From assembly GCA_003223215.1 (NCBI GenBank), contig QHYH01000118.1, positions 1 to 44,652 on the forward strand: a stretch of DNA of 44,652 nucleotides, read 5' to 3'. This document shows positions 9,012 through 44,652 of this stretch, piece after piece. The notes beneath the pieces were generated by a model, which had not been told where the DNA came from, did no database searches, and saw only the letters and a list, made by a program, of their open reading frames with translations. The translations under genes were made by a program, and so were the position numbers. This stretch comes from Acidobacteriota bacterium (GTDB lineage: Bacteria; Acidobacteriota; Terriglobia; Acidiferrales; UBA7541). Numbering within the stretch: position 1 is the stretch's first letter; each line of letters begins with the position of its first letter.

Positions 9012-9045
9012 GAAATTTCTCCTGCCTTTGGTGGCCAACCGCTCT

Positions 9046-10715: not shown

Positions 10716-10776
10716 AAACGTCCACTAACAACTCGGCGAACATATCACTGAAGCATCCGGCTAGGGTTACCTCGAC

Positions 10777-17132: not shown

Positions 17133-17314
17133 GGAAAAGCACCGAGTTCATATAGTGAAACGCGAGACCTGGTATATAAAACTGCGGACCTCTGCTAGAC
17201 TTGCCTCTGCTTCAATGAGCCCGGACTTCACCTAGGTACTGGCCAAGAGCTCTGCGGCGCCTGACGGACGTGTTTTTCCTCGGGCTTGCCGGCAAATCCA
17301 GCCCTGGAACCATT

Positions 17315-18121: not shown

Positions 18122-18204
18122 AGGCTGCGTGATGACGGCGGCACTGCCGGCCGACAGGAGCTCCGCGTCGATGATTTCATTTCACGGAACGGAGGAGCCT
18201 TCCA

Positions 18205-19002
18205 CTGACGAACGCACCGAAGCAATCCAATTGCAAGCGGCTTGACGGCAAAGCGGCGGTTGTTACCGGGGCCGCCAGCGGCATAGGCCAGGCCATTGCG
18301 CAAAGATTTGCGCAGGAAGGTGCACGGGTGTGGCTCGTGGATATTGATGAAGAGCGAGCGAAAAGCACAGCTCGTGAGATTGTGAACTACGGTGGTAGGG
18401 CCGCGGCGCATGTTTGCGACGTCACCCAGCAACGGTCGGTAAGAGATCTGTTCCGACGGCTCGCCAGTGAGAACCCACTTCATATCCTCGTAAATAGTGC
18501 GGGGGTCTCCCACATTGGGAAGCTTGAGAGCACCTCCGAAGCGGAATTCGACAGGATTTTTCAGGTAAATGTAAAGGGAACCTACAACTGCATGCATGCG
18601 GTGATCGACGCGATGAAGACCAGCGGCGGCGTCATTTTGAATATGGCTTCGATCGCCGCGACCGCCGGTCTCGCCGATCGCTTTGCCTATTCGATGAGCA
18701 AGGGCGCCGTCCTTTCAATGACGTTGTCCGTAGCCCGGGATTATTTGGCCCACAAGATCAGATGCAACTGCATTTCACCGGCGCGCGTGCACACGGCCTT
18801 CGTCGACGGCTATCTGAAACGGAATTATCCCGGCCGTGAACAGGAAATGTTCCGGACTCTCTCGCAGTCCCAGCCGATAGGCCGCATGGGAAAACCCGAG
18901 GAAGTAGCGGCGCTTGCTTTGTTTCTGTGCTCGGACGAGGCCGCCTTCATTACCGGAACAGACTATCCGATTGACGGTGGATTTTTTAACCTCCACGGAT
19001 GA
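18205..19002 (+). CDS. SDR oxidoreductase, probable 2-keto-3-deoxy-sugar-acid dehydrogenase; unusual CTG start
   Basis: A classical SDR: VVTGAASGIGQAIAQ nucleotide motif, VNSAGVSHIG, NMASIAA, YSMSKGA (Tyr/Lys) and a closing TGTDYPIDGGF. The first ATG/GTG/TTG in frame (GTG 18328) lies after the nucleotide-binding motif and would destroy the fold. The frame is open back to TGA at 18172, and GGAGGAG (18191-18197) sits 7 nt before CTG 18205, so I take CTG as the start, giving 265 residues (TNAPKQSNCKRLDGK). The sequence style (SPARVHTAFVDGYLKRNYPG) and the FAH neighbour resemble 2-keto-3-deoxy-L-fuconate or -rhamnonate dehydrogenases. Specificity is inferred from context. Confidence 0.85.
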   Translation: MTNAPKQSNCKRLDGKAAVVTGAASGIGQAIAQRFAQEGARVWLVDIDEERAKSTAREIVNYGGRAAAHVCDVTQQRSVRDLFRRLASENPLHILVNSAGVSHIGKLESTSEAEFDRIFQVNVKGTYNCMHAVIDAMKTSGGVILNMASIAATAGLADRFAYSMSKGAVLSMTLSVARDYLAHKIRCNCISPARVHTAFVDGYLKRNYPGREQEMFRTLSQSQPIGRMGKPEEVAALALFLCSDEAAFITGTDYPIDGGFFNLHG

Positions 19003-19119
19003 GAGCGGCCTCTGCCGGAAGGGGCAAGCGACTCGCAGCCAGGCCCGGTTCGTTTTTTCTCGCGACGGTGCAACACCAATTGCAGGGAAGAAGATTGCAA
19101 GAGCAGCGGATGAACCGGC

Positions 19120-19239
19120 GCGTTGCTTCCGGGAGGGCCACACCGTCAGCCCGGGCGCCGAAGACGCGACAGCCGCACGGCCGCCTCCTCCCAATTTGAG
19201 AAAGGTGCGCCTCGGGATTGCACTGGTTTGCTGCCTCAA
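19120..19239 (-). pseudogene. 5' fragment of a twin-arginine-exported protein gene
   Basis: A minus-strand start, TTG 19239 with AAGGAG 7 nt upstream, leads into a signal of twin-arginine type: IPRRTFLKLGGG followed by AAVASSAPGLTV. The frame then degenerates and runs antisense through the end of the SDR gene to 18775 without further recognisable sequence. It lies 60 bp downstream of the IclR stop in the same direction. I read it as the surviving start of a gene once co-transcribed with the regulator and truncated by the event that placed the SDR here. The product's function cannot be told. Confidence 0.45.
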
Positions 19240-19299
19240 GGTGGAACTCCTTGGCTCGGCGAATTTCTTGCCCTCCGGTGAACTCCTCTCCCCTCGCTG

Positions 19300-20079
19300 T
19301 CAGTGCGAATGTCCAAGCTGTGCGGAGATGGCTCGTGCCGCTTTTTTTGTTGCGAGGGCATAGCCATGAATGCGGTCGCGGCTCATCCGCGTGATAGGTC
19401 CGGAAACGCTGATGGCGGCGGCAACTTTCCCACTCTCGTCCAAGATCGGGGCGGCCACGCAGCGGGCGCCCATGTCGGTCTCTTGATCGTCGATGGCGTA
19501 TCCTTGTTGCACGACGCGAACAAGCTCTTTCCGGAACCTTGCAAGATTCGGAATCGTGCGCGGAGTGGCGCGCTCAAAGGTCAGCAACGGCAATAGCTCT
19601 TCGCGGTGCTCGGCGGGAAGAAAAGCGAGCAGTGCTTTCCCCAGGGCGGTGCAGTTCAGCGGACGATGCATTCCCGGCTGCGAGGCCATGCGAAAAGAAT
19701 GAGGGCTCTCGATCACGTCGAGGTAGAACACCTCGTGCCCGTCGAGGACGCCGAGATTCACGGTTTCCTTGGTGCTGTTGGCGAGCGCGATGGCCACGGG
19801 CCGGCTGACCTTCCGCAACGTGGCGTGATAAGCAATCCCGGCGCCCAGCCTTGCCAATTTCGGACCCACGACGTAGGCGCCGGCATCGTCACGCAGAAGA
19901 TAGCCTTCGCTCGCCAAATGCGCCAGGAATCGGTAGGCAGTGCTCTTGTTAACCCGAGTCTGCTGGGCGATTTCACGAAGCTGCAACCCTGTGGGAGAAG
20001 CGTCGAGCACCTCCAAAATGCGCAACACTTTTCCTACCACTCCGACGGGGGCGGATTTTGATTCGCGTGCGCGGATCAT
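19300..20079 (-). CDS. IclR family transcriptional regulator
   Basis: 259 residues from ATG 20079, chosen because AAGGAGG lies 9 nt upstream. Residues about 12-72 form the winged helix (VLRILEVLDASPTGLQLREIAQQ, NKSTAYRFLAHLASEGYL). The C-terminal effector domain is complete, with GMHRPLNCTALGKALLA, QGYAIDDQETDMGARCVAAPI and AAISVSGPITRM. IclR proteins commonly control aromatic or sugar-acid catabolism (KdgR of pectin breakdown is one). It converges with the FAH/SDR genes, the likely targets. Two palindromes with 5-nt centres lie 68-107 bp upstream of its start. Confidence 0.9.
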   Translation of the reverse strand: MIRARESKSAPVGVVGKVLRILEVLDASPTGLQLREIAQQTRVNKSTAYRFLAHLASEGYLLRDDAGAYVVGPKLARLGAGIAYHATLRKVSRPVAIALANSTKETVNLGVLDGHEVFYLDVIESPHSFRMASQPGMHRPLNCTALGKALLAFLPAEHREELLPLLTFERATPRTIPNLARFRKELVRVVQQGYAIDDQETDMGARCVAAPILDESGKVAAAISVSGPITRMSRDRIHGYALATKKAARAISAQLGHSH

Positions 20080-20133
20080 CCGGAGAGTCCTCCTTCCGTC
20101 CCGAGCGGGCCCGGCAGGCAAATTGATTCCGGC

Positions 20134-29637: not shown

Positions 29638-29768
29638 CCATTGGGGCGCGTGGCCCCACTGACCCGTGCGTGTCAGGCAAGAAACCGTAGCGGAACGCAA
29701 TCTGGCGCGGTGTTTGGTATAGTTCGCACGGATTGGGAGCGGTTACGAATAGAGTGGAGGACTCGCAA

Positions 29769-30638
29769 ATGCGGACGTTCCCAGCGGTGCTCTTGGCAAT
29801 CGGGGCGGCGGCACTACCAGCTCAGGATCGGAAAGTCGAACCGACTTGGTTGTACCGAGACGCGTCTGCCGTCCGCGAGCAGCATAATGACCTGACGAGT
29901 AACTCCTGCCATTACACTCCGATCTTTGGTGAGGGGGACGTTGAGGCCCGCTTTCCGCTTAGCGTAGCCCGCTTCGGAGAAGTGACGGTCGAGGCGCACG
30001 GCGCTTGCCAGACAGTCGAGTATCCGCGTCAAGAAGAACTCTATTTCGTCGCCAACGGCAGCGGAGTCTTGCGTTACGGCGAACAATCGTATCTCTTGGC
30101 CCAAAATGATTTCACATATGTGCCTCCGACTGTTCGACACAGCGTGTCGAATCCGTCCGATCAGAAGCTCCAGCTTGTCGTCATCACCGTCAGAGTTTCT
30201 CCTGAAACCTCACTTGCGAAACAAGCGAAGTTAGCGGTGGCTAATCTTAGCGAACTGAAGGAACAGACAGTGGAGGGTCATCCGCAGTCTGTGCAGTATA
30301 AGCTTCTCATCGGGCCGCACACGGGCGTGCGTGACCGGATCAACGCCGCCTATACCGTCGCCGACTTTTTCCTGATGGACTTCGAGCCGGGCGGGACCAA
30401 CTTTCCGCATCATCACGAAGTGGCAGAAGAGATTTATCTCGTGCTGGACGGAAAGGGACAGATAGCTGCAGGCGGGGGGATGGATGGAGTTGAGGGCTTG
30501 CATCCTGCCAAGCCGGGAGACGCCTATTATTTTCGCCCCAATTGCACGGTCGGCTTCTACAACCAGAATACGCCCGGTGCGAAGGCTCATGTTCTTGCAG
30601 TACGAGCCTTCGTCCCGATGCCCAAGAATCCCGACTGA
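29769..30638 (+). CDS. Exported bicupin protein
   Basis: 289 residues from ATG 29769, chosen because TGGAGG lies 9 nt upstream and MRTFPAVLLAIGAAALPAQDR is a signal peptide. Two cupin barrels: the first around VTVEAHGACQTVEYPRQEELYFVANGSGVLRYGE...FTYVPPTVRHSVSNP, the second around FEPGGTNFPHHHEVAEEIYLVLDGKGQ...GDAYYFRP, whose HHHxxxxE ligands can bind a metal. The first barrel lacks the usual histidine triad. Cupins of this kind may be dioxygenases, isomerases or sugar-binding; no assignment is possible. It is monocistronic. Confidence 0.8.
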   Translation: MRTFPAVLLAIGAAALPAQDRKVEPTWLYRDASAVREQHNDLTSNSCHYTPIFGEGDVEARFPLSVARFGEVTVEAHGACQTVEYPRQEELYFVANGSGVLRYGEQSYLLAQNDFTYVPPTVRHSVSNPSDQKLQLVVITVRVSPETSLAKQAKLAVANLSELKEQTVEGHPQSVQYKLLIGPHTGVRDRINAAYTVADFFLMDFEPGGTNFPHHHEVAEEIYLVLDGKGQIAAGGGMDGVEGLHPAKPGDAYYFRPNCTVGFYNQNTPGAKAHVLAVRAFVPMPKNPD

Positions 30639-32505: not shown

Positions 32506-33477
32506 TTACGGCACAACGGATAAATATGGCACGAAGCCGTGCGACTTGGTGCGCAACCGGTAGACTGAGGTCGTCGCGGTGATGTAAAGAGTGGCGTACC
32601 CCGGATCTCCCCAAGCCAAATTCGCAGGTTGCTCCGGCAGGACAATAGTGCCCAAGTAGCGTCCCACAGGGTTCCAAACCCAGATTCCCTTCGGGCCGGT
32701 GACGTAGATATTCCCGGCCTGGTCAATTTTCATTCCATCCGGCACGCCGTCGCCTTTTCCGCCCGGCTCCTGCGCGAAAATTCGCCCGTTGGCTAAGGTG
32801 TGTTCGGAGGTGAAATCAAAGACCCGAATGTTCCTACCCTCGCTGTCATCCACGTAGAAACGCTTGCCATCCGGAGAAAATGCCAGGCCGTTCGGTTGCG
32901 ACAATTCCTTCGTCAGCAAAGTCACCTTTCCTGAAACATCGAGGCGATAGACGCCCTGGAACGGCAACTCCTGTTTTTGTCCATTTGGAAGGTCGAGTGT
33001 CGGATCGGTGAAATAAAGCGCGCCGTCGGGACCCATCACGACGTCATTAGGACTGTTGAATCGTTTATCCTCAAAACGGTCTGCGAGAACTTCATATTCA
33101 CCTTGACGGTCAATCCGAATGATGGCGCGCAGAACGCTGGCGCAATCGATGAGTCGTTGTTGGCGATCGTAGGTGTTGCCGTCGGGATCGCCGAGAGAAA
33201 CGAGCTCCTCTTTCGTTCCATCCATGTATACGTGAAGAATCTTGTTACTGACTTCGTCGCTGACAATCACGAAGCCGGCAGGATCCCACACCGGGCCTTC
33301 GGTAAAACCAAAGCCGGACGCCACGGTGGATAATTTGGATTCCCGGTCAACGAGTGTCCAAAAATCGTCAGAATTCGCTTGCAGCTGAAATTCACGCCTA
33401 GGTTTCTGCGGTCCGGTACAAACCCCGCCTAACGAAAGAACGGAAAACAACAGGACCACTGAAAATCTCCACCTCAT
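32506..33477 (-). CDS. Exported SMP-30/gluconolactonase-like protein
   Basis: 323 residues with a signal peptide (MRWRFSVVLLFSVLSLGGVC). Six-bladed propeller with the SMP-30 metal ligands: E in GFTEGPVWDP, N in RFNSPNDVVMGPDG, N in QPNGLAFSPDG and D in GVPDGMKID. Exported sugar lactonases of this type hydrolyse aldonolactones in the periplasm. It sits 26 bp downstream of the cytochrome gene on the same strand, so the two probably share a transcript. Its stop lies at the very edge of the IS200/IS605 right end; the last few residues (SHGFVPYLSVVP) may be altered. Confidence 0.87.
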   Translation of the reverse strand: MRWRFSVVLLFSVLSLGGVCTGPQKPRREFQLQANSDDFWTLVDRESKLSTVASGFGFTEGPVWDPAGFVIVSDEVSNKILHVYMDGTKEELVSLGDPDGNTYDRQQRLIDCASVLRAIIRIDRQGEYEVLADRFEDKRFNSPNDVVMGPDGALYFTDPTLDLPNGQKQELPFQGVYRLDVSGKVTLLTKELSQPNGLAFSPDGKRFYVDDSEGRNIRVFDFTSEHTLANGRIFAQEPGGKGDGVPDGMKIDQAGNIYVTGPKGIWVWNPVGRYLGTIVLPEQPANLAWGDPGYATLYITATTSVYRLRTKSHGFVPYLSVVP

Positions 33478-33503
33478 TAGCGCGCAATCCCCCGGCTCAA
33501 TTG

Positions 33504-34379
33504 CTATTCCTCGTCCCGGTCTTCACGATTGCTCTGCGCCTTTCGGACACTGGCTGACCGCGATGTCCAGAGCAAATAACTCACCAAGTCGTCGAGTTCC
33601 CCAGACGACAGGATAGTGCCGTAGTCTGAAGGCATTGCGGACCGTCCGGTATAAGTCAGGTCCTTGATATCCGACTTGTTTAGGAGATGAAACACGCCAT
33701 CAGGAGTCTGTAGTTGCAGTGAAAAATTGTCTTCGTTGCGTGCTATGCCGGAAAGCGTGGTCGAATCGGCAAGAATGACAGTAACCAAGCCGCGTCGGGG
33801 ATCGAGATCTTTGTTGGGATTGACGATCACGGAACGAATGTCATCGGCACCCATTCTCGTTGCGTAGGAAGTGAGGTCCAGACCAAAGAACCCACCCTGG
33901 CCGCTGATCATATGACACTCCGCGCATTTCGCTTTGCCAAAGAACAGCGCCTTTCCGCGTGGGGGATCACCCGGGAGAGGGGGCATTTTGCTGCCGCCTT
34001 GCAGCGAACGCAGATAGTCAACGAGCGCCGACAGTTTGGCGGGTGCGTAAGACGCGAACGATGGCATGCCGGCCGAGGTTTTTCCATCGGTCAGGATCTT
34101 GCGGAGTTCCGCATCTGTCTTGCGCACGACTTCGGAGCGGGACACGAGGTCCGGTCCGCGCTCGCCACCGCGTGCGTCGAGCCCATGGCACGACGCACAT
34201 GCGGTGTCAAAAGCCGCCTTGGCCTCCATGAGGCTCACGGCGTTCGTTTTGGACGCGGTCCTACCTGGCCTGTTCTGCGCGCTAAGAGGAACGGCAGCGA
34301 TCGCAAGAAAGCAAGACACTGCCGTCAACCGAATCAAGACTTCCGCTGAGACAGACCGCTTCCTTCGTTCCTTAGGCAT
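33504..34379 (-). CDS. Exported di-haem c-type cytochrome
   Basis: 291 residues. An uncleaved or cleaved hydrophobic N-terminus (LIRLTAVSCFLAIAAVPLSAQN) directs export. Two haem c sites are visible: CASCH near residue 60 with a distal SAGMPSF methionine, and CAECH near residue 150; the second domain (about 140-260) resembles the haem-binding domain found fused to Planctomycete/Acidobacteria membrane dehydrogenases, with DLDPRRGLVTVILADSTTLSG and the closing MPSDYGTILSSGELDDLVSYL. Role: electron acceptor. The quinoprotein gene across the divergent promoter is a natural donor. Confidence 0.88.
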   Translation of the reverse strand: MPKERRKRSVSAEVLIRLTAVSCFLAIAAVPLSAQNRPGRTASKTNAVSLMEAKAAFDTACASCHGLDARGGERGPDLVSRSEVVRKTDAELRKILTDGKTSAGMPSFASYAPAKLSALVDYLRSLQGGSKMPPLPGDPPRGKALFFGKAKCAECHMISGQGGFFGLDLTSYATRMGADDIRSVIVNPNKDLDPRRGLVTVILADSTTLSGIARNEDNFSLQLQTPDGVFHLLNKSDIKDLTYTGRSAMPSDYGTILSSGELDDLVSYLLWTSRSASVRKAQSNREDRDEE

Positions 34380-34496
34380 GGCCGATCTTAAGCAATTCGG
34401 TTTACGGGATCAACTCTTCCGCAAGCAACGCAAAAGACTTCTCCGAATGCTTCCAAAGATGCTAAAGTGCGCGCGTCTTAAGTGCAAGGAGGGTCT

Positions 34497-35276
34497 GTGC
34501 TAACTCTTCGATTTTTTCGTCGTGACGTCGCTTTGTTCTTGAGTCTGCCGGTCACTCTGAGCCTATTGGTTCTAGCACATGCCGCGAAAACTTCGGCAAG
34601 ACAAGAATTGCCCGCAGCACAAGCGAAAGATGAGGCATCTCTGCTCGATGGTTTTCGCCATGTGGAGGTCGCCTCCGTGTCCGATGCCCTCGAACAGATT
34701 GCCAATAAAAAGATGTATATGACCCATCGCATGCGCCCGATCTTTCAAACACGGTTCGCAGGTTATGCACTCACCGTTTCGCTGAAAAAGGATGCCAATC
34801 ACGATCCTGACGCCCTCAAAGGCATGCTGCAGGCCATCGACACGGGCACGCCCAATTCCGTTTACGTCATGGTGGTGGAAGATGGAAACGACATCGCCGG
34901 CATGGGCGGATTGATGGGCACGGCTATGGCGGCCAGAAACTTTTCGGGCGCAGTGATCGACGGTGGAGTGCGAGACACCGCCTATCTCCAAAAGATTGGC
35001 TTCCCGGTATACGCACTCGGCGTTGTCCCTTCGACGTCCGTCAGCCACTACCGATTTGCCGGCTCGAATATCCCCGTGACTTGCGACGGCGTACCGGTAA
35101 ACCCGGGAGATATCATCACCGCCGATCCCGATGGCGTAGTGGTTGTACCCAAGGGCATCGCTCCTCAGATTTTAAAACTAGCGCAGGAAATGGACTTCAA
35201 GGAGCACTCGATGTATGCCTACATAGAGAAGCTTAAATCGATTCTGGAAGCCGTGGCCAAATTCGGCCGGTTGTGA
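34497..35276 (+). CDS. Exported RraA-like protein (HMG/CHA aldolase fold)
   Basis: 259 residues from GTG 34497; GGAGG lies 4 nt upstream, and GTG 34482 would put the ribosome site inside the frame. A signal peptide (FLSLPVTLSLLVLAHAA) precedes a full RraA domain: SVSDALEQI, GGLMGTAMAARNFSGAVIDGGVRDTAYL (the G-x3-R/D metal and pyruvate site) and the closing VNPGDIITADPDGVVVVP. Family members split 4-hydroxy-4-methyl-2-oxoglutarate or decarboxylate oxaloacetate, others inhibit RNase E. An exported member cannot be an RNase E regulator, so an aldolase/decarboxylase-like role is more likely. Divergent from the cytochrome gene, with 117 bp between. Confidence 0.85.
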   Translation: MLTLRFFRRDVALFLSLPVTLSLLVLAHAAKTSARQELPAAQAKDEASLLDGFRHVEVASVSDALEQIANKKMYMTHRMRPIFQTRFAGYALTVSLKKDANHDPDALKGMLQAIDTGTPNSVYVMVVEDGNDIAGMGGLMGTAMAARNFSGAVIDGGVRDTAYLQKIGFPVYALGVVPSTSVSHYRFAGSNIPVTCDGVPVNPGDIITADPDGVVVVPKGIAPQILKLAQEMDFKEHSMYAYIEKLKSILEAVAKFGRL

Positions 35277-35341
35277 AATATTCTGGCCTCCCGCCGCCGA
35301 CTTGTAGTATATGAGTTTCATTCTTTGGAGCCGCCTTCATT

Positions 35342-37018
35342 GTGACGAAGTTCCGATTGTCGCTGAGGAGACAAAACTCTAGCGATGGCCCGATGGCGAC
35401 CATTTTTCTTTTACTTGCGCTGCTTTTGAAAGCGATGCCGTTGTCCTCCCAGGACGACCGGATGACTTCCCTGACCACTACCATTGACGTGCTCCCCGCC
35501 CAATTATTGTCAAGGCCGAGTGCTACAAACTGGCTGTCGTACAACGGGGATTACACTGGCCGCCGCTACAGCGCTCTACGCGAAGTCCATGCTGGTAACG
35601 TCGCGCAGCTCCGCGCCCAGTGGGTCTTTCACGCATCGAGCTCCAGCAACCTCGAAGTTACTCCTGTTGTCGTAGACGGAATCATGTTCATCACCGCAGC
35701 CAACGACGCATTCGCCCTCGACGCCCAAACGGGACGGACTCTCTGGCATTACTCGCGTCCGGTCACCGAAGGACTCATCGACGACGCCTCGCAACATCAC
35801 AATCGCGGCGTCGGCATCTGGCGCTCACGCATCTATATGGAAACGGACAATGCGCATCTGCTTTGTTTGGACGCCCGCTCCGGACATCTTCTCTGGGATG
35901 TCGCTTACACCGATGGCAGCCCAAATTACGGCGCAACTAGCGCGCCACTGGTCGTGCAAAATAAAGTGATCGTAGGAACTTCTGGAGGCGACGACGGCGT
36001 ACGCGGCTTTGTCGCCGCTTATGACGCGGAGACCGGCAGGGAGGCGTGGCGTTTTTGGACCATTCCGCCCCCCGGCGAATTCGGTTCCGCGAGCTGGCCG
36101 GGCGAAAGCTACAAACTGGGCGGCGGCACCACCTGGATGCCAGGCACGTTTGATCCTGAACTCAACACCATTTTCTGGGGCACGAGCAATCCTGCGCCCG
36201 ATTTTGACGGTGCCCCGCGCCCTGGCGATGACCTCTACACCGATTGTCTGCTCGCACTCGATCCGGACACAGGCAAACTCAAATGGTATTTTCAGTTCAC
36301 CCCGCACGACCTTTTTGACTATGACGCAACCCAGACGCCAGTCCTTGTCGACGCAACGTTCCGCGGACGGCCGCGGAAACTCATCATCGAAGCAAACCGA
36401 AACGGTTTTCTGTACTTGCTCGATCGCACCAACGGCCAATTTCTCTCCGCAATGCGCTTCGCCGAGAAACTGAATTGGGCTACCGGAATTGACGAGAAAG
36501 GCCGCCCCATCCGCACGGAAATCAAGCCTAGCGCGGAAGGCACGCGCGTTTGCCCCGGCATGGTCGGGGCCACCAATTGGCACGCGCCTTCTTACAATCC
36601 CGAGACTTCACTCTTTTATTTCATGGCCCTCGAGTCTTGCAGCGTTTTGGTTTTGAAACCCCAAGCATTCAAGCCCCGCGAAACGTACTATTCCACCGGT
36701 GCCCGTCACAGCGAAGGTGACTACAACCAGAAAATCTTATTGGCCTATTCTGTCGACGGCGACAAGCCCGCCTGGCGCTACGTCCAGACAGGCCGGGGCC
36801 ATTCTGCAGGCGGAACGATGACCACGGCCGGTGGACTTGTCTTTTTCGGTGACGATGCGGAATCCTTTGAGGCCGTTGACGCGCAGACGGGTAAGCCACT
36901 TTGGCACTTCCACACCGGCCAGAACATCGCCGCATCCCCGATGAGCTACGCCATCAACTCGAAACAATATGTGGCGATCGCCGCGGGGAGCGACATTTTC
37001 AGTTTTGCCCTGCCGTGA
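35342..37018 (+). CDS. Exported quinoprotein-type (PQQ) dehydrogenase
   Basis: 558 residues from GTG 35342, with a hydrophobic leader (ATIFLLLALLLKAMPLSSQ). An eight-bladed propeller with tryptophan-docking repeats (DAQTGRTLWHY, DARSGHLLWDV, DAETGREAWRF, DPDTGKLKWYF, DAQTGKPLWHF). The catalytic region TPHDLFDYDATQTP carries D326 and a second acid D328, as in lanthanide-type enzymes. The vicinal CysCys that stacks on PQQ is replaced by QHH before NRGVG. No cytochrome domain is fused. From memory, some Acidobacteria proteins of this kind are called 'empty' quinoproteins because PQQ synthesis is missing, so cofactor content is uncertain. Ends 91 bp before the RidA-like gene. Confidence 0.85.
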   Translation: MTKFRLSLRRQNSSDGPMATIFLLLALLLKAMPLSSQDDRMTSLTTTIDVLPAQLLSRPSATNWLSYNGDYTGRRYSALREVHAGNVAQLRAQWVFHASSSSNLEVTPVVVDGIMFITAANDAFALDAQTGRTLWHYSRPVTEGLIDDASQHHNRGVGIWRSRIYMETDNAHLLCLDARSGHLLWDVAYTDGSPNYGATSAPLVVQNKVIVGTSGGDDGVRGFVAAYDAETGREAWRFWTIPPPGEFGSASWPGESYKLGGGTTWMPGTFDPELNTIFWGTSNPAPDFDGAPRPGDDLYTDCLLALDPDTGKLKWYFQFTPHDLFDYDATQTPVLVDATFRGRPRKLIIEANRNGFLYLLDRTNGQFLSAMRFAEKLNWATGIDEKGRPIRTEIKPSAEGTRVCPGMVGATNWHAPSYNPETSLFYFMALESCSVLVLKPQAFKPRETYYSTGARHSEGDYNQKILLAYSVDGDKPAWRYVQTGRGHSAGGTMTTAGGLVFFGDDAESFEAVDAQTGKPLWHFHTGQNIAASPMSYAINSKQYVAIAAGSDIFSFALP

Positions 37019-37109
37019 CGGAAGCAGGCATGGCTTCGCAGCACAACGATGTTGAGGGTAAGGGCAGTTGGAAAGAACGGAACGAAGAACCAATCAAGAA
37101 GGAGGAACA

Positions 37110-37616
37110 ATGCTTTCATTTCTGACTTCGCGGCGTGGTTTCGCAACAAGGCTGGCCGCACTCATTCCGGGGTTTGCCGTTTCCGGGGCTCGGGTCAGCG
37201 CAGCGGCCTCTCCGCAAGCTGCAACAGGCGTGAAGAAACTCAATTACGAAGGCAAGCCGGCCGGAACCGGGTTCATCACCCCGCTCGTCATACACAACGA
37301 CACCATCTACATCGCTGGCCAAGGAGCCCATTCGCATGATCCCGAAGGGCAGTTCCCCATGGACATCGAGACCCACACCAAAAAGGTGATGGACAACGTC
37401 AAGACTCTGGTCGAGACCGGCGGCGGCACCATGGACAGCATTCTTCAGCTCACCGTTTATCTGACCAAGATCGACGACTACGATGGCATGAACAAAATCT
37501 TCAAAACTTATTTCCCGAATGGCGGCCCCGCGCGAACCACGGTAGCCGTTGCCGCACTTCCCGGGAATTCGCTGGTGGAAATCAATTGTATTGCCGCCGT
37601 CACGCGGAAGGGATGA
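37110..37616 (+). CDS. RidA-like protein with a twin-arginine signal
   Basis: 168 residues from ATG 37110, with AAGGAGG 5 nt upstream. N-terminus LTSRRGFATRLAALIPGFAVSGARVSAAA has the SRRGFATR twin-arginine pattern, a hydrophobic core and an AxA site. The mature part is a complete Rid/YjgF domain: IYIAGQGAHS, MDNVKTLVETGGGTMDSILQLTVYLT, and GGPARTTVAVAALPGNSLVEI with the deaminase arginine R142 and E157. Rid proteins hydrolyse enamine/imine intermediates released by PLP enzymes. The stop lies 12 bp before the PLP-enzyme gene. Export of a Rid protein is unusual and matches export of its likely partner. Confidence 0.88.
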   Translation: MLSFLTSRRGFATRLAALIPGFAVSGARVSAAASPQAATGVKKLNYEGKPAGTGFITPLVIHNDTIYIAGQGAHSHDPEGQFPMDIETHTKKVMDNVKTLVETGGGTMDSILQLTVYLTKIDDYDGMNKIFKTYFPNGGPARTTVAVAALPGNSLVEINCIAAVTRKG

Positions 37617-37628
37617 GAGGCGTTCCCC

Positions 37629-38888
37629 ATGACCATCAAGAATTTTTTGAACCGGCGAAACTTCCTCGGAAGCGCTGGCGTGCTTGGGGGCATGATGCTT
37701 AGCGCGCGCAGAGTATTAGGCTTGACAGCCCTCCTTCCGGCACCAGCGCAACAAAGACTCACTGGCTTTGGCGCCACAGGAAACGTTTACGAAGAGCTGG
37801 GAGTCACCACCGTGATCAACGGCCAAGGAACCATGACTTACTTGGGCGGCTCACTCCCCCGTCCGGAAGTCGCAGCCGTTATGGCCCTTGCGGCGGAACA
37901 TTTTGTTTCCATCGTGGAATTGGAACAGGCCGCGGGAAAGCGCGTCGTGGAACTGCTGAAGCTTCCCGCCGACTACGATGCGATTGTCACCTGCGGCGCA
38001 GCGGCAGGCATGCAGTCCGGCCTCGCAGGAATTCTCACCGGCAACAATCCCAAATTCATCGAGCAACTGCCGGATCTCGCCGGCATGAAAAGTGAAGTCA
38101 TCATTCAAAAGTCGCACCGAAACGGGTTCGATCATCAGTTACGCGCTACCGGCGTCAAACTGGTCGAAGTGGAATCGCGCGAGGACGTGAAGCGGGCCAT
38201 CAATTCACAAACGGCCATGATGCACTTTTCGAATTTTGCCAACGCGGCCGGCCAAATCAAAGTCGACGAATGGGTAAAGCTCGCGCATGAAAACCAGATT
38301 CCCGCCTTCAACGACGCTGCGGCGGACACCCCGCCCGTTTCGCATCTCTGGGACTACGCCAACATGGGCTACGACCTTATCGCGTTCAGCGGCGGCAAAG
38401 CCATCCGCGGACCGCAATGCGCCGGGCTGCTCATTGGCAAAAAAGAATTGATCGCCAACGCACTGCTCAACAACAGCCCGCATGAAGATACGCTTGGCCG
38501 CGGCATGAAAGTTGGCAAGGAGGAAATCATCGGCATGGTCAAAGCCCTGGAATGCTACTTGAACGAAGACCACGCCGCGCTGGACAAGGAATGGTGGCGC
38601 CGCCTGGACGCAGTTTCCGCAGAGGTTGCGCGAGTTCCCGGAGTGGCAACCTCCTTCAACGTTCCCGACGTTGCCAATCATGTCCCGCACATGCGCATTT
38701 TTTGGGATCCGCGCAAGATTTCTCTGTCTCCCCACGACGCCGCCAGCGCGCTGCGAAATGGCAAGCCCTCCATCGTGCTCGGTTCATCGGAAGGCGGCCT
38801 GGGCATGAACTCGTTCATGCTGAAACCCGGCGAAGAAAAAATCATCGCCGCACAACTTGTCCAGCTCTTCAAATCCCATACCGCGTGA
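37629..38888 (+). CDS. Tat-exported SelA/DgaE-like PLP enzyme
   Basis: 419 residues. The N-terminus (NRRNFLGSAGVLGGMMLSA) is a twin-arginine signal. The mature enzyme is fold-type I: VTCGAAAGMQSGLAG binds the phosphate, PAFNDAAADTPP (D229) pairs with the pyridine nitrogen, and AFSGGKAIRGPQ holds the Schiff-base lysine K257. The closest families are SelA-like 'selenocysteine synthase' homologues, including D-glucosaminate-6-phosphate ammonia-lyase; a selenium role is unlikely since tRNA-Sec must be cytoplasmic. It may perform alpha,beta-elimination (ammonia loss) on a hydroxy-amino acid or amino-sugar acid. Coupled with the RidA-like gene; the MFS gene follows after 66 bp. Confidence 0.87.
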   Translation: MTIKNFLNRRNFLGSAGVLGGMMLSARRVLGLTALLPAPAQQRLTGFGATGNVYEELGVTTVINGQGTMTYLGGSLPRPEVAAVMALAAEHFVSIVELEQAAGKRVVELLKLPADYDAIVTCGAAAGMQSGLAGILTGNNPKFIEQLPDLAGMKSEVIIQKSHRNGFDHQLRATGVKLVEVESREDVKRAINSQTAMMHFSNFANAAGQIKVDEWVKLAHENQIPAFNDAAADTPPVSHLWDYANMGYDLIAFSGGKAIRGPQCAGLLIGKKELIANALLNNSPHEDTLGRGMKVGKEEIIGMVKALECYLNEDHAALDKEWWRRLDAVSAEVARVPGVATSFNVPDVANHVPHMRIFWDPRKISLSPHDAASALRNGKPSIVLGSSEGGLGMNSFMLKPGEEKIIAAQLVQLFKSHTA

Positions 38889-38954
38889 CGGCGGGATGCG
38901 TCATTTGAGGGCCGGCGAGTTGGGCATGCTGGAAGGCGACTCGAGTATCTGTCA

Positions 38955-40253
38955 ATGACTTCACAGCCGACAAGCCACGTACGCTGGTTTCTCGTCTTCT
39001 TGCTTTTTGTCCTGAGTGCCGTCGCGTTTCTCGACCGGGTGAATCTTTCCATCGCGGGCGCAAAGATCTCCGAGGAGTTCGGCATCAGCAACATCCGCCT
39101 CGGCCTTGTCTTCAGCGCATTTCTTTTCGGGTATGCGCTCTTCCAAACTCCCGCAGGATGGCTCGCCGATCGCTTTGGTCCCAGGCGAATGCTTACTCTT
39201 GGAGTCCTGTGGTGGGGCGTCTTTAGCGCCTTGACGGCAGCCATCTCTCCCAACATTGGCCATACCGTGGTGGTCCTCGTGGTGATTCGCTTTCTCCTTG
39301 GTGCCGGCGAGGCCATCGTATATCCCGCTTCCAACCAGTTTGTCGCGCGTTGGATCCCTAGTCACGAACGCGGCGTGGCTAACGGGATCATTTTCGCCGG
39401 TGTCGGCATCGGCGCGGGGATCACTCCTCCGCTCATCTCCTTCGTTATGCTGCGCTACGGGTGGCGCTCGTCCTTCTTGATCAGTGCGCTAATCGGGCTT
39501 GCCGTCGGCGCCGTATGGTTTCTGGTCGCACGCGATACGCCTGATGAGCATCCTTCTTTGTCGTCGAATGAGCTCACACTCATTCAGCAGGGGATTCCGA
39601 AATCGGCAGCTTCGAACGAAGGAAACCTGCTCTCATGGTCCAGCATCCTGTCGAGCCGCAATGTCTGGATTCTCTCGCTTGCGTATTTTTGCTTCGGCTA
39701 CGTCGCCTGGGTTTTCTTTAGCTGGTTCTATCTCTATCTCGCCAGAGTGCGGGGCCTGGACTTGAAGACTAGCGCCCTCTACGCAACGCTGCCTTTTCTA
39801 GCTATGGCGGTCTGCAGCCCATTTGGCGGAGCCATCAGCGACACCGTGACTAAACATCTGGGCTCGCGACTGGGTCGCTGCAGCATCGCCGTCCTCGGTT
39901 TCATCCTTACCGCGACCTTCCTTGTTTTTGGGTCCGCTGCCCACGATGCACGAGTCGCGAGCTTTGTTCTGGCCGGTGGCGCAGGCTCTCTCTATCTTTC
40001 ACAAAGCTCGTTCTGGGCGGTTTCCGCAGATCTCGGCGGAAAATCCTCCGGCTCGCTCTCCGGCTTCATGAACATGGCAAATCAAATCGGCGGCATGATT
40101 ACCGTGTCCTTGACTCCTTTCCTGGCGGACAGATTTGGGTGGAACACGGGATTTTACGTCGCGGCTGCCATTGCCGGGCTCGGCGCGATCGCTTGGCTTT
40201 TGGTCAACCCAGGACTTACCCTGGCCCCTTCGTCGAGAAATTCATTGATCTAA
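38955..40253 (+). CDS. MFS transporter, anion:cation symporter (ACS) type
   Basis: 432 residues with 12 predicted membrane segments. The N-terminal signature AVAFLDRVNLSIAGAKISEEFG and the loop GWLADRFGPRRML match the ACS family (ExuT/GudP/GarP-like), which imports hexuronates, aldarates and related organic anions with protons. FLLGAGEAIVYPASNQFVARWIP is also typical. Its place straight after four exported-enzyme genes suggests import of their acidic product. ATG 38955 has a weak ribosome site. Confidence 0.88.
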   Translation: MTSQPTSHVRWFLVFLLFVLSAVAFLDRVNLSIAGAKISEEFGISNIRLGLVFSAFLFGYALFQTPAGWLADRFGPRRMLTLGVLWWGVFSALTAAISPNIGHTVVVLVVIRFLLGAGEAIVYPASNQFVARWIPSHERGVANGIIFAGVGIGAGITPPLISFVMLRYGWRSSFLISALIGLAVGAVWFLVARDTPDEHPSLSSNELTLIQQGIPKSAASNEGNLLSWSSILSSRNVWILSLAYFCFGYVAWVFFSWFYLYLARVRGLDLKTSALYATLPFLAMAVCSPFGGAISDTVTKHLGSRLGRCSIAVLGFILTATFLVFGSAAHDARVASFVLAGGAGSLYLSQSSFWAVSADLGGKSSGSLSGFMNMANQIGGMITVSLTPFLADRFGWNTGFYVAAAIAGLGAIAWLLVNPGLTLAPSSRNSLI

Positions 40254-40452: not shown

Positions 40453-43400
40453 ATGAGCAAGCACCATTTCCGTATTTTCTTTCCCATTTTAATCGTTTTA
40501 ATAATGCTAACCAGCGGTGCCCTGGTGCGCGCAGACGTGACCGGATCGATTCTCGGTGTGGTACATGACCGTTCGCAGGCCGTGGTGGCAGGCGCGCGCA
40601 TTGTAGCCACAAATGTTCAAACTAATTTCAGCCAGCAAACAACTTCAGCTGCAGACGGTTCCTACCGCATCCTGGCTCTGCCGGCCGGAACTTACAAGAT
40701 GACGGTGACAGCAGCCGGATTCAAACAGTACAACACGACGGATATCGACCTGAAAGTGAACGACCAATTGCGCATCGACGTCGCGCTGGAGGTTGGGGGT
40801 GTCAATGAAGTGGTCGAAATCTCTGCCAATGCCGTGCAGGTCCAGACCGAAAACACGCAGTTGGGCGACGTGATCGAATCGAAGAAAATGCTGGCGCTCC
40901 CATTGAATGGCCGCAGCTACCTGGACCTCCTCGGCCTGCAAGCAGGAGTGGTGCCGGTGACTTCCGGCTCGATTCAGCAGGACCGGTCGGTTTCGGGGGG
41001 ATACTCGCCGAACGCTGGCAACCTTTCCGTAAATGGCCAGCGGGAGACCGCCAATGCGTTTCTGGTGAACGGCGGCGACGTGAGCGAGGGGCGCAACCTG
41101 GGCGCCGGGCTGATCCCCAATCTTGATTCCGTGGAGGAATTCCGGCTGATCACCAACAGCTTTGATGCCGAGTATGGAAAATTCAGCGGCGCGGTGATGA
41201 ACACGATTACCAAGTCCGGCACCAACGGCATCCACGGAGATGCGTTTTATTTCTGGCGCAACGACACACTCGATGCGCGAGGTTTCTTCGACCCGTCCAA
41301 GGCGGAGCTGCGGCGTCACCAGTTCGGCTACGCAGTGGGAGGCCCGTTCTGGAAAAACAAGCTTTTCTGGTTCACGGACTATCAGGGGACGCGCGAGGTC
41401 AGGGGAGCCAGTACGGGTGCGGTGACGGTGCCCACGGCCAACCAACAGAAGGGCATCTTCACTCCGGCGGACTTCGCGGATTCCAGCGGCAACCCACTGC
41501 TAGTGAACAGTCAACCTTGCCCCGGGGGTGCTACGTGTGGATTAAATTGGGCGGACGCGCTCACGAGCCGACTGGGCTACACGGTTGTCAACAATGAGCC
41601 CTATTCCACGCCAGCCTGCAACACTACCGATTATACCAGCCCCACCGGCTGTGTTTTTCCCAATGGCGTAATCCCATCGAGCGCTTTTTCCACACCCGCC
41701 ATCAAGATACTGCCCTACATCCCCCTAGGCGATGGGAATGGAAATTTCGCGGACGCCAACCAAAGGAACAGGATTGGGGATAACAAGTACGGACAAAGGG
41801 TAGACTTCAATAACAAGATGACCGGCGATTGGTCGTTTTATTATCACTTCGACGACGCGAATAACTTCAATGCCCTGAACGCCAGCGTGCCAGGCTTTTC
41901 CAGCGTCACGAAAACCCGTGCACAGCAGATCGTCATAAACAACAACAAATCTCTTAGCACGACCTCGGTGAATCAATTTCGCTTGAGCTTCTTCCGGACA
42001 GCTACGCATACGGACGAGCCAAATAGCAGCTTCGCAAAACTCTCGGATCTGGGGTTTAAAACCGGACCAGGAACATTGGGCATCATCCCTTCGGGCCCCG
42101 CTGGATTTCCAGAGACGGTGCCGCCGATATACTTCAACAACTTCTCCCTCGGCGTGAACACGCTGACGACATTTCAGCCAAACAACACCTGGCACGTCTC
42201 CGACACTTTTTCGAAAGCGCGAGGCCGACACACGGTCAAGTTTGGCGGTGAGTTCCGCTACCTGCAGATCAATGAGCGCAATACGTGCGCGCCGAACGGA
42301 GACTTCACCTTCGATGGCAGCATAACCGGCTCAGATTTCGCGGACTTCCTGCTCGGCGCAGCGCAAAACTATAACCAGTGCAGCCAGCAGTTTTTGGATT
42401 CACGGTCGCGTTATGGCGGGGCGTTCGCTGAGGACACCCTCAAGGCGAAGTCGAACCTCACTCTCAATCTTGGTGTGCGCTGGGAAGTGAGTATGCCGTG
42501 GTATGACACGCAGGGCAAAATCGAGACCATCGTTCCCGGGCTGCAGTCCACGCAGTTCCCGACTGCGCCGCTCGCTTGGGTGGTTCCGGGAGATCCGGGC
42601 ATTCCGAGCACACTGGCACCGACCCGGTATAACAACTTTTCTCCCAGGCTCGGTATCGCTTACTCGCCCGGCTTTAAAGATGGGATGGCGGGCAAGATCT
42701 TCGGTGGCCCGGGGAAGACTAGTATCCGAGCAGCCTTCGGCATTTATTACACGTCCATCGAAGATTTGAATCTGTTCTATGAGGTCGGAGATGCTCCTTT
42801 TGGGCTGTATTGGGTTTCGCCGAACCCCGTCAACTTCGACCAGCCGTTTCAGGAAGTCGCCAATGGAATGTCAGAGGGGCAGCGATTCCCATTTGTGTTT
42901 CCTAAACCGGGAAGCCCGGCTAATAAGACGCTAGATTATTCGATCTATCTGCCCATCTCGTTCTCCCCGGGCTACGACATTCACAATCACCCGCCATACG
43001 CGGAGCACTACAACTTGTCCATTCAGCGGGAGCTAAGTAAGTCCACGGTGCTGACCTTGGCCTATGTGGGAACCCAAGGCCACAAGCTAATCTCCCAATA
43101 CGACGCGAATCCGGGTGACTTCGCGCTATGCCTGCAGCTCAACCAACTCGGCGCCACGCCTACTTGCGGACGCAATGGTGAGAACCAAACCTACACTCTG
43201 CCTCCAGGCGTAGCGGCTCCGGCTAAGGCGTATATCACTCCATGTCCCTCTGGAACCCCCGCTGGAAGCACCTGCATACCTGGTACGCGTGACCATTTAG
43301 GGCCCGACTTTAGCCAGGACAACAGCTTCACTGCCAACCTCGCCAACTCCGTGTACCACGCAGGACAGATCACCGTGGAACGTAAGGCCGCGGATTTTAC

Positions 43401-44070
43401 CTTCCTGGCGGCGTACACGTTCGCCAAGGCGATGGACAATTCTTCCGGCTTTGGCCAATGGGTGAACTTCCTGAACCCCCGGCTCAGCCGCTCACTTTCG
43501 CAATACGACATTACGCACAACTTCGTGGCGAGTTACATCTATGCTATGCCCTTCGACCGGGCATTCGGCAAACTGCCGAAGCGCTTAACGCAAGGCTGGG
43601 CCCTCAACGGCGTTACGCGCTATTCCGGTGGTCTGCCGGTATCGCTCAGACAGGGCGGGGATTACTCACTGGTCGGCGGCGGGAACACCGATGTGCCCGA
43701 CCTCGTCGGGAAAGTCGTGACCCAAAATCCCCGAAATCCGGGTGCCAATGGAGCGAACACCTACTTCCTGCCGGACGCGTTTGCCAGTGGTCCAAACGGC
43801 GGATTTGGCAATGCCAACCGCCAGTTCTTCCACGGCCCCGGAATCAGCGTCACGGACTTCGGGATCGGTAAGAGGACCATGATCAAAGAGGCCATGGGCT
43901 TCGAGATTCGCGCTGAATTCTTTAATGTATTCAATCACGCGAATTTCAATAACCCGAACGGCAATTTTAACAACTCCGACACGTTCGGCCGAGTGACCAG
44001 TACCAGGTCATTTGGAGACCTTGGCAGCGGCTCGCGCGAAGGGCAAATCAGCGCGAAGTTCACCTGGTAA
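40453..44070 (+). CDS. TonB-dependent receptor, Acidobacteria CarboxypepD_reg/Oar-like type
   Basis: 1205 residues. Signal peptide (residues 1-28, IFFPILIVLIMLTSGALVRA), then an Ig-like carboxypeptidase-regulatory domain (VTGSILGVVHDRSQAVVAGARI...YKMTVTAAGFKQY, about 28-115), a plug-like domain (ALPLNGRSYLDLLGLQAGV...LSVNGQRETANAFLVNGGD, then FSGAVMNTITKSGTNGIHG) and a long beta-barrel ending in GSREGQISAKFTW with a C-terminal aromatic. Typical exporters/importers of glycans or oligosaccharides across the outer membrane. No clear TonB-box is seen. Follows the MFS gene after 199 bp with its own leader, so co-regulation is likely but not shown. Confidence 0.93.
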   Translation: MSKHHFRIFFPILIVLIMLTSGALVRADVTGSILGVVHDRSQAVVAGARIVATNVQTNFSQQTTSAADGSYRILALPAGTYKMTVTAAGFKQYNTTDIDLKVNDQLRIDVALEVGGVNEVVEISANAVQVQTENTQLGDVIESKKMLALPLNGRSYLDLLGLQAGVVPVTSGSIQQDRSVSGGYSPNAGNLSVNGQRETANAFLVNGGDVSEGRNLGAGLIPNLDSVEEFRLITNSFDAEYGKFSGAVMNTITKSGTNGIHGDAFYFWRNDTLDARGFFDPSKAELRRHQFGYAVGGPFWKNKLFWFTDYQGTREVRGASTGAVTVPTANQQKGIFTPADFADSSGNPLLVNSQPCPGGATCGLNWADALTSRLGYTVVNNEPYSTPACNTTDYTSPTGCVFPNGVIPSSAFSTPAIKILPYIPLGDGNGNFADANQRNRIGDNKYGQRVDFNNKMTGDWSFYYHFDDANNFNALNASVPGFSSVTKTRAQQIVINNNKSLSTTSVNQFRLSFFRTATHTDEPNSSFAKLSDLGFKTGPGTLGIIPSGPAGFPETVPPIYFNNFSLGVNTLTTFQPNNTWHVSDTFSKARGRHTVKFGGEFRYLQINERNTCAPNGDFTFDGSITGSDFADFLLGAAQNYNQCSQQFLDSRSRYGGAFAEDTLKAKSNLTLNLGVRWEVSMPWYDTQGKIETIVPGLQSTQFPTAPLAWVVPGDPGIPSTLAPTRYNNFSPRLGIAYSPGFKDGMAGKIFGGPGKTSIRAAFGIYYTSIEDLNLFYEVGDAPFGLYWVSPNPVNFDQPFQEVANGMSEGQRFPFVFPKPGSPANKTLDYSIYLPISFSPGYDIHNHPPYAEHYNLSIQRELSKSTVLTLAYVGTQGHKLISQYDANPGDFALCLQLNQLGATPTCGRNGENQTYTLPPGVAAPAKAYITPCPSGTPAGSTCIPGTRDHLGPDFSQDNSFTANLANSVYHAGQITVERKAADFTFLAAYTFAKAMDNSSGFGQWVNFLNPRLSRSLSQYDITHNFVASYIYAMPFDRAFGKLPKRLTQGWALNGVTRYSGGLPVSLRQGGDYSLVGGGNTDVPDLVGKVVTQNPRNPGANGANTYFLPDAFASGPNGGFGNANRQFFHGPGISVTDFGIGKRTMIKEAMGFEIRAEFFNVFNHANFNNPNGNFNNSDTFGRVTSTRSFGDLGSGSREGQISAKFTW

Positions 44071-44129: not shown

Positions 44130-44652
44130 ATGAAACCAATTCCGCAATTTTTGGAACGGTGCAGGCTTTCGGTGTTTCTGCTGGCTTTGGGTCCCTTGTT
44201 CTCGGCGCGAACCCCTGCGCAAACAGCTGAGAGTTATCGCCAACGCGCCATCGAGCTTTCTCGCGCCAAGTTATGGGATGAAGCCATAGCCAGTTATCAC
44301 CAGGCATTAGAACTCGCGCCCGACGACGCCCAAACCCACTACAACCTGGCGCTCGCCTTGAAGTATAAGGGCGACAACAGGCAAGCCGTTGACGAATTCG
44401 AGACCACCCTGCGGCTGAAACCAAAATGGGAAGAAGCGCACTACGGTTTGGGTTCCACCTGGTACGACCTCGAGGACCTCAGCGCGGCAAGAAAAGAGCT
44501 ACGTAAAGCAGTCGAACTGAATCCCAAGAATGCGCCGGCCCATCGCCTCCTTGGGCGCATTTATTCGCAGCAGAACGATTTTTCATCCGCCGAAGGGGAA
44601 CTCCGCCAAGCCCTTGCGCTGAAACCTTCCGCTGAGACGCATTTCGAATTGG
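44130..44652 (+). CDS. TPR-repeat protein, cut by the window edge
   Basis: ATG 44130, 59 bp after the receptor stop, opens a frame that runs off the window after 174 codons. A signal peptide (LSVFLLALGPLFSARTPAQ) precedes at least four tetratricopeptide repeats: AIASYHQALELAPDDAQTHY, AVDEFETTLRLKPKWEEAHY, ARKELRKAVELNPKNAPAHR and AEGELRQALALKP. Acidobacterial receptor genes are often followed by such TPR proteins, so it probably works with the receptor or belongs to the same transcript. Function of the missing part unknown. Confidence 0.85.
   Translation, partial: MKPIPQFLERCRLSVFLLALGPLFSARTPAQTAESYRQRAIELSRAKLWDEAIASYHQALELAPDDAQTHYNLALALKYKGDNRQAVDEFETTLRLKPKWEEAHYGLGSTWYDLEDLSAARKELRKAVELNPKNAPAHRLLGRIYSQQNDFSSAEGELRQALALKPSAETHFEL

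Follow-up and report, generated by a model that had tools for sequence, protein, structure and literature searches.

A divergent cluster of seven genes in an Acidobacteriota genome may encode an oxidative route outside the cytoplasm that converts an amino-aldose, most likely glucosamine, to 2-keto-3-deoxygluconate (KDG); we put the probability of this reading at a little under one half (about 0.46). The cluster lies within a stretch of 44,652 nucleotides, which we refer to as the window. It forms the first part of a 96,950-base contig (C203 in our numbering) of a genome of 8.8 Mb that is 97.65% complete. What can be read from the sequence itself are the genes, their linkage, their export signals, the catalytic lysine of a pyridoxal 5'-phosphate (PLP) enzyme, the absence from this enzyme of sites found in its relative DGL, and the links to kinase and aldolase genes.

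Layout of the gene cluster

The original prediction, made from the letters of the window, had described seven genes of named families in a divergent arrangement. We found all seven at the coordinates and on the strands that it gave, and their Pfam matches are all above gathering scores, so this description holds throughout. A minus-strand unit of two genes, an SMP-30/gluconolactonase (SGL) family lactonase and a di-haem cytochrome c, faces a plus-strand unit composed of RraA, a quinoprotein, RidA, a DgaE/SelA-like PLP enzyme and an ACS-type permease:

32506 to 33477, minus strand: SGL family protein (PF08450), 323 amino acids, with a Sec-type signal; proposed lactonase
33504 to 34379, minus strand: di-haem cytochrome c (CASCH, CAECH), 291 amino acids, with a signal; proposed electron acceptor
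34380 to 34496, no strand: divergent intergenic region between the two units
34497 to 35276, plus strand: RraA/HMG-aldolase-like protein with a signal (open reading frame, ORF, listed from 34482)
35342 to 37018, plus strand: quinoprotein dehydrogenase homologue with a signal, between TIGR03075 and TIGR04528; proposed to oxidise C1
37110 to 37616, plus strand: RidA-family protein with a twin-arginine signal, TSRRGFATRLAALIPG, and the key arginine kept; proposed enamine/imine hydrolase
37629 to 38888, plus strand: DgaE/SelA-like PLP enzyme with a twin-arginine signal, NRRNFLGSAG; proposed amino-sugar-acid ammonia-lyase
38955 to 40253, plus strand: ACS-type permease of the major facilitator superfamily (MFS), matching MFS_1; candidate for the import of KDG or a comparable acid

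Pfam scores were 164.7 bits for SGL (cut-off 26.3), 65.0 for Cytochrome_CBB3, 124.6 for RraA-like, 308.7 for PQQ, 84.1 for Ribonuc_L-PSP (PF01042, cut-off 27.3), 46.1 for SelA and 217.0 for MFS_1. The closest solved relatives of the SGL protein are the named gluconolactonases 3e5z and 3dr2, and the cytochrome, with its two CxxCH sites, scores 94.7 bits against TIGR02603 (cut-off 68.15). The quinoprotein narrowly exceeds the cut-off of TIGR03075, PQQ-dependent alcohol dehydrogenase (485.3 against 480.05 bits), and scores 541.3 bits against TIGR04528, 'acido-empty-quinoprotein group A', under a cut-off of 650. Scores also fell under the cut-off for the permease against TIGR00893 (246.9 bits, cut-off 395) and for RidA against TIGR00004 (85.0 bits, cut-off 106.25).

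RraA and RidA have better starts than those of the longest ORFs, at 34497 and 37110. The GTG at 34497 is preceded by AGGAGGG, which is Shine-Dalgarno-like, and because a sequence of this kind stands ahead of each start, RraA probably begins at GTG 34497 and RidA at ATG 37110. With RraA starting at 34497, 117 bases separate the divergent units.

Conservation of the gene set

Scanning genome contigs with the PLP enzyme yielded 461 relatives, the nearest of them from Acidobacteriota, of which the best 80 loci were analysed; because the loci were picked by this enzyme, all locus counts are conditional on it. We distinguished 47 close-relative loci, in which the PLP enzyme is at least 60% identical, from 33 distant-homologue loci. 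Genes in the relatives were simple longest-ORF calls, and neighbours were counted within 9 kb around the PLP enzyme at identity thresholds that we set by family (36-55%).

The quinoprotein was found in 42 of the 47 close loci, RraA in 41, RidA and the cytochrome in 38 each, the permease in 36 and the SGL protein in 24. RidA, the quinoprotein and RraA share a strand in 34 of the 42 close loci with at least 7 kb to the left, compared with 1 of 29 distant loci. All five, with the cytochrome and SGL genes on the opposite strand, occur in 17 of these 42 loci and in 0 of the 29. Linkage of the gene set thus exceeds chance by far, and we rejected a chance neighbourhood because the linkage recurs in close-relative loci and is nearly absent from distant-homologue loci. 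When the same set was sought in sister genomes, as had been suggested earlier, the genes stayed together in the close-relative loci, and the prediction was not refuted.

Among 151 genomes sampled from the class, 10 encode a PLP enzyme with at least 60% identity along almost the entire protein. Three loci (L021, L050 and L053) have a PLP gene split in two frames, through either assembly error or pseudogene formation, and the short pieces were excluded from the counts. Another (L016), labelled Betaproteobacteria, has an Acidobacteriota cluster and neighbours like those of L015; it is probably a mislabelled or misbinned contig. Locus L018 belongs to KBS 96, seemingly a cultured isolate, and contains the set in part.

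Export signals

Signals in homologues from the 80 loci and the window were called by a home-made scorer that permits any in-frame start. All calls were of the twin-arginine (Tat) type for the PLP enzyme (SelA core; 39 of 48, with 6 lacking a signal and 3 cut) and for core RidA (34 of 39; 4 none, 1 cut). Signals were also called in 40 of 42 RraA proteins (2 cut), 41 of 43 cytochromes, 27 of 31 SGL proteins (3 none, 1 cut) and 37 of 48 quinoproteins (7 none, 4 cut). For 59 distant PLP homologues the outcome was even (29 called, 29 none, 1 cut), and a second kind of RidA-type protein in the neighbourhood of these loci was mostly scored Sec (29 of 33), not Tat. Among the controls, the scorer called 0 of 9 PfkB, 0 of 9 NagB and 0 of 6 Eda proteins, and it falsely labelled 6 of 19 IclR proteins 'Sec' because any in-frame start was permitted. 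Its Tat label is loose, as the window RraA, Sec-like by eye, was labelled Tat, and it cannot separate a signal from a first membrane helix (the permease was called in 33 of 35).

The twin arginine itself was counted separately. All 44 close rows, among them that of the window, have RR-x-[FLIVM] no more than 75 residues before the PLP domain, as do 57 of the 58 distant rows, with 1 cut. The count used stop-to-stop frames, where some motifs may precede the true start; it suggests that the scorer missed signals. Across 44 aligned PLP enzymes of our choosing, down to 37% identity, R9 and R10 do not vary, and of the 37 RidA homologues that have a letter at that position, at least 95% keep the twin arginine. 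Signals that recur in dozens of loci are not reading errors of single genes, an explanation that we rejected. The scorer, the alignment and the motif count agree that the signals proposed for this cluster are retained in sister genomes. Export by Tat would fit an enzyme that has to fold and be loaded with PLP in the cytoplasm first.

The PLP enzyme and its RidA neighbour

The catalytic lysine of the PLP enzyme is present in 102 of 102 rows. Membership scores were 147.4 and 181.7 bits, and the best NCBIfam models are those of the DgaE family, with cut-offs missed. Compared with DGL (numbered here as in the 7lc0 chain, where the SGAK lysine is residue 213; the text of PMC9529869 has Lys-217), 43 of 44 close rows have Arg or Lys at the position of the carboxylate-site Arg226. 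None of these 44 rows has Arg at the phosphate-site positions 301, 332 and 346, which are His, Gly and Phe in the window enzyme, as would be expected if the substrate were unphosphorylated. Similarly, His at 162/163, the proton-donor pair of DGL, is found at the aligned places in 0 of the 44; the full pair is kept only in RSHH-type rows of four loci (L067, L068, L076 and L079). Filing the enzyme as DgaE was rejected, since it falls short of the cut-offs and lacks both the His pair and the phosphate site.

RidA keeps its catalytic arginine, presumably Arg105, within GGPaRTT, and at least 95% of 37 homologues do so as well. According to an excerpt of PMC9529869, the H163A variant of DGL is still active and releases a 293-nm enamine, and the authors there name RidA-type enzymes as degrading such enamines. 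Release of an enamine followed by RidA clean-up is therefore a possible reason for a co-exported RidA.

Probable links to KDG metabolism

Accessory genes were counted in the same 47 close and 33 distant loci at identity thresholds of our own; 22 of the distant loci have 5 kb downstream and 17 have 7 kb upstream. Behind the permease, a KDG-kinase-like PfkB gene occurs in 10 of the 47 close loci (best models below cut-off) and a 2-keto-3-deoxy-6-phosphogluconate (KDPG) aldolase gene, eda, in 8 (the one tested passes the TIGR01182 cut-off). An IclR regulator is found in 23, with KdgR as its best model, although that match leads BhcR by just 1.4 bits and falls short of the cut-off, and a NagB-like protein in 9. 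A DUF4380 protein is present in 14, and the scorer called a signal in 14 of its 17 members. This probably exported mutarotase-fold protein precedes the quinoprotein in relatives, and its model (pLDDT, the predicted local distance difference test, 81.1) gives a partial match to galactose mutarotase 3mwx (E 3.9e-13; TM-scores 0.43 by query and 0.60 by target). Each of these genes is found in 0 of the 33 distant loci.

The genome of the window has a PfkB homologue (70% identical) that adjoins Eda on another contig, C190. This pair in turn adjoins an ACS-type permease and the D-mannonate dehydratase ManD (726.2 bits, cut-off 550). As ManD makes KDG, the neighbouring PfkB is very likely a KDG kinase. 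Given the linked kinase and aldolase genes and this pair beside a mannonate dehydratase, the product imported by the cluster is most likely KDG.

Proposed route

From these genes we infer all the reactions, together with the substrate and the export of the proteins, as follows. In relatives, the mutarotase-fold protein would act first. The quinoprotein would oxidise C1 to give a lactone, with electrons passing to the di-haem cytochrome c, and the SGL protein would open the lactone to a 2-amino-aldonate. The Tat-exported, PLP-loaded DgaE-like enzyme would eliminate water and release an enamine or imine, which Tat-exported RidA would convert to a 2-keto-3-deoxy acid and ammonia. The ACS permease would import this acid, and a cytoplasmic KDG kinase and KDPG aldolase would turn it into glyceraldehyde-3-phosphate and pyruvate. 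RraA is related to pyruvate aldolases; it may split some of the keto-acid outside the cytoplasm, or it may have a different function.

A more tentative proposal concerns the deaminating pathway, the whole of which may lie outside the cytoplasm: a PLP ammonia-lyase, loaded with cofactor, exported by Tat and without the DGL pair, would free the reactive enamine in the periplasm and a co-exported RidA would finish the reaction there, so that the enamine would avoid cytoplasmic PLP enzymes and only the keto-acid would be imported. The pathway originally predicted is supported in part: the kinase and aldolase genes and the mutarotase-fold neighbour favour a sugar-acid route that would end in KDG, with a putative substrate.

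Observations against the route and alternative readings

Several observations weigh against this route, and we take them together with the alternatives on which they bear. Foremost are those on the oxidation step. The vicinal cysteines of the quinoprotein, which we take to be Cys103-104, are absent from all 42 homologues from other genomes that have letters at these positions, and the calcium-ligand glutamate, by the same assumed numbering Glu177, is Asp in 43 of 43. The 97.65% complete genome of the window has no PqqC match and no PqqE over the cut-off; these searches give positives in other genomes, so they work. With no pyrroloquinoline quinone (PQQ) synthesis seen in the genome, PQQ would be taken up or the propeller would work otherwise. 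The oxidation assigned earlier to this protein is weakened by these findings, and the quinoprotein is the weakest link of the proposed step.

A reading without C1 oxidation, which we regard as unlikely though ahead of the others, keeps exported PLP/RidA deamination and KDG import. The propeller would be 'empty' or used differently, and the substrate would be an oxidised amino-aldonate, for instance glucosaminate from oxidative breakdown of chitin or chitosan. The quinoprotein does score higher against TIGR04528 (541.3 bits) than against TIGR03075 (485.3 bits), but it misses the cut-off of the former and reaches that of the latter. Its Cys pair is gone, yet the PQQ-site Trp, Asn, catalytic Asp and Arg (in positions whose numbering we likewise assume) are retained by the window protein and by almost every homologue, although also in two TIGR04528 members over the cut-off. 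Neither PqqC nor PqqE exceeds the cut-off in 6 of the 10 carriers of the PLP enzyme, whereas both do in the other 4. A polysaccharide deacetylase gene, which adjoins the cluster in 2 of 47 close loci (0 of 33 distant), would suit this reading; the lactonase, cytochrome and mutarotase-fold neighbours suit C1 oxidation. PqqC is over the cut-off in 25 of the 151 class genomes, and the 4 carriers among them are too few for a link to the cluster to be drawn.

Two further observations concern these proteins. A close PLP-carrying relative has only pieces of pqqC and pqqE (G058:C173:8679-11342), through decay of PQQ synthesis or poor assembly. The genome of the window encodes further TIGR04528-related quinoproteins (for example at L001 and L002), and two over the cut-off have Val or Phe in place of the Glu ligand.

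The role of RraA was also reconsidered. Arg123 and the metal-ligand Asp124 are kept in 39 of 39 homologues, and the upstream Asp of what we take to be a D-X20-R-D motif is Gly in 38 of the 39, with 1 gap, which weakens the aldol cleavage first proposed. An excerpt of PMC5065237 states that the Arg-Asp pair is needed for enolate and metal binding and counts the majority of the family's homologues as likely class II pyruvate aldolases; as it also speaks of likely aldolases being marked by two motifs, proteins of the Gly form may nevertheless be active. The pathway could instead be completed outside, in the manner of an exported non-phosphorylating Entner-Doudoroff pathway: RraA would split the 2-keto-3-deoxy acid, giving pyruvate and an aldehyde, and pyruvate or a small acid would enter through the permease. 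Linkage of RraA in 41 of 47 loci and an RraA-like gene by a second module (see below) are in keeping with this, but the altered motif opposes it and the linked KDG kinase and KDPG aldolase indicate uptake of intact KDG, so that we consider it improbable.

As for the PLP enzyme, a conserved His (MMHF) lies a few residues before the place of the DGL pair in 43 of 44 close and 9 of 58 distant rows and could act as proton donor, which weakens the idea that the enzyme has none. Three alignments place the His-pair loop differently. With the DGL pair absent and another conserved His nearby, release of the enamine to RidA is uncertain. His at 162 or 163 occurs in 0 of 51 rows with RidA within 1 kb and in 5 of 51 without; a rule that loss of the pair accompanies a neighbouring RidA was not upheld, since 46 of the 51 rows without a near RidA also lack the pair.

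Structurally, O2-using Cap15 is as close to this enzyme as DGL. Foldseek with the model (pLDDT 86.6) ranked Cap15 (8t7j; E 2.7e-30, TM-score by target 0.89) ahead of DGL (7lc0; 3.2e-30, 0.85), and the enzyme shares a KxGKE segment with both. Cap15 uses O2, as stated in an excerpt of PMC6411801, and the PLP enzyme might by analogy be an O2-dependent oxidase or oxidative decarboxylase of a periplasmic amino acid, with RidA hydrolysing the imine. We give this little credence, because the sequence search puts DGL first (7.6e-33 versus 1.2e-28 for Cap15), the best NCBIfam models are those of the DgaE family, and KDG genes lie nearby.

The evidence for KDG has limits of its own. The accessory-gene queries came from close-relative loci, so that the counts are biased towards these loci; the NagB, IclR and PfkB matches are all under equivalog cut-offs; and only a minority of loci have the kinase and aldolase genes next to the cluster, the window not being one of them. 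A substrate other than an amino sugar (another hydroxylated amino acid, or an acid derived from pectin uronate, with the PLP/RidA pair deaminating a different side product) is scarcely probable, for although the window holds a rhamnogalacturonidase (587.4 bits, cut-off 500) and an enolase-superfamily sugar-acid dehydratase with a Tat-like N-terminus lies beyond it, the relatives' loci examined have no rhamnogalacturonidase homologue (E 1e-20) and the PLP/RidA pair requires an amine.

Neighbouring genes and a second module

Four further features of the window, two beyond the permease and two possible accessories to its left, are:

40453 to 44070, plus strand: CarboxypepD_reg and OMP_b-brl_4 outer-membrane barrel (609.5 bits)
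44130 to 44652, plus strand: first part of a tetratricopeptide-repeat (TPR) protein that continues past the window edge and precedes a second SelA-RidA module
29733 to 30638, plus strand: bicupin, with homologues (47-58%) in 5 relative loci
2313 to 4448, plus strand: F5/8-type-C protein, with homologues (up to 76%) beside the cluster in 8 relative loci

An outer-membrane receptor had been proposed to follow the cluster. There is an outer-membrane barrel at that place, and the receptor label falls away, as its TonB_dep_Rec match (25.6) is below the cut-off of 27. Some of the relatives have such a barrel close to the cluster, with the same strand in 4 of 47 and the opposite strand in 13 of 47. 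For the F5/8-type-C protein, one relative shows a weak GH39-like match below cut-off.

Beyond the window, at about 46.5-50.3 kb of C203 (L096:2461-6278), the second module comprises a SelA homologue with a twin arginine (within the 44-enzyme alignment), a Rid-family protein of 419 amino acids, whose homologue at L013 has three Rid stretches, and, on the opposite strand, an RraA-like protein. An enolase-superfamily sugar-acid dehydratase follows (L096:6487-7902) with a Tat-like N-terminus by eye; dehydratases of this kind are normally cytoplasmic. By eye, the N-termini of the Rid protein, the RraA-like protein and the dehydratase are all signal-like. Several relatives have TPR, SelA and RidA genes of the second-module kind close to the cluster, so this region may be given over more widely to exported sugar-acid chemistry.

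Annotation of the left half of the window covers parts of the region. At 15750-20121 the rhamnogalacturonidase is followed by an FAH-type hydrolase, a short-chain dehydrogenase/reductase (SDR) and an IclR regulator, a run that looks like breakdown of rhamnogalacturonan or L-rhamnonate. On the minus strand, 7749-12515 encodes an MFS protein, an SDR, a xylose-isomerase-like barrel, a zinc dehydrogenase and a hexulose-phosphate-synthase-like protein, perhaps another sugar pathway.

Comparison with known systems

To our knowledge, PLP-dependent elimination with Rid clean-up is regarded as cytoplasmic chemistry, and in a search of open-licence PMC papers we recognised no description of this gene set. 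Judged by its sequence, the set probably enables soil Acidobacteriota to oxidise and deaminate an amino sugar outside the cytoplasm and to import the keto-acid. If so, such chemistry outside the cell interior would be new, and it would mean the following: 1) soil Acidobacteriota, which are abundant and poorly understood, split amino-sugar breakdown across the membrane; 2) both the release of ammonia and the collection of electrons take place outside, and just one acid is taken up; 3) RidA gains an extracytoplasmic partner of its own and, as substrate, a defined enamine; and 4) the 'empty quinoprotein' question becomes testable within a defined pathway.

The proposed route resembles the ong cluster of Pseudoalteromonas, in which, according to an excerpt of PMC9537276, a PLP deaminase of D-glucosaminate (GlcN1A), RidA and the KDG kinase KdgK are each essential for use of N-acetyl-D-glucosaminate (GlcNAc1A). 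In both, an amino-aldonate would be turned into KDG by a PLP deaminase with a RidA partner, ahead of a KDG kinase; of these ong-type partners, RidA is adjacent in the window, and a KDG-kinase-like PfkB is adjacent in 10 of 47 relatives and found elsewhere in the genome of the window. By contrast, the ong deaminase OngC is given in that excerpt as fold-type III, with OngB and OngC predicted to be cytoplasmic, whereas the enzyme here is of DgaE/SelA type with a Tat signal; a lactonase, a cytochrome and a quinoprotein are linked to it, and an OngB-like gene was not seen in the cluster.

With DGL and DgaE, the PLP enzyme shares fold and family, the proposed elimination chemistry and an Entner-Doudoroff exit. 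DGL, however, takes a phosphorylated acid after uptake by the phosphotransferase system, while the present enzyme lacks the phosphate-site Arg and His162/163 at the aligned places and has an export signal. In periplasmic aldose oxidation, PQQ dehydrogenases and gluconolactonase act outside and the aldonate is imported as such. The proposed oxidation and lactone hydrolysis outside the cytoplasm, with electrons reaching the respiratory chain, are alike, but here the deaminating PLP/RidA step has export signals too. Cap15 of capuramycin biosynthesis (8t7j), the closest structural match of the PLP enzyme and level with DGL, differs in performing a biosynthetic oxidative decarboxylation, as described in an excerpt of PMC6411801; the neighbours here are Rid and KDG-type genes. 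Cumulatively, the conversion of an amino-aldonate to KDG is already known chemistry, from ong and, in phosphorylated form, from DgaE, and the differences lie in its location, in the type of PLP enzyme and in the linked lactonase, cytochrome and quinoprotein.

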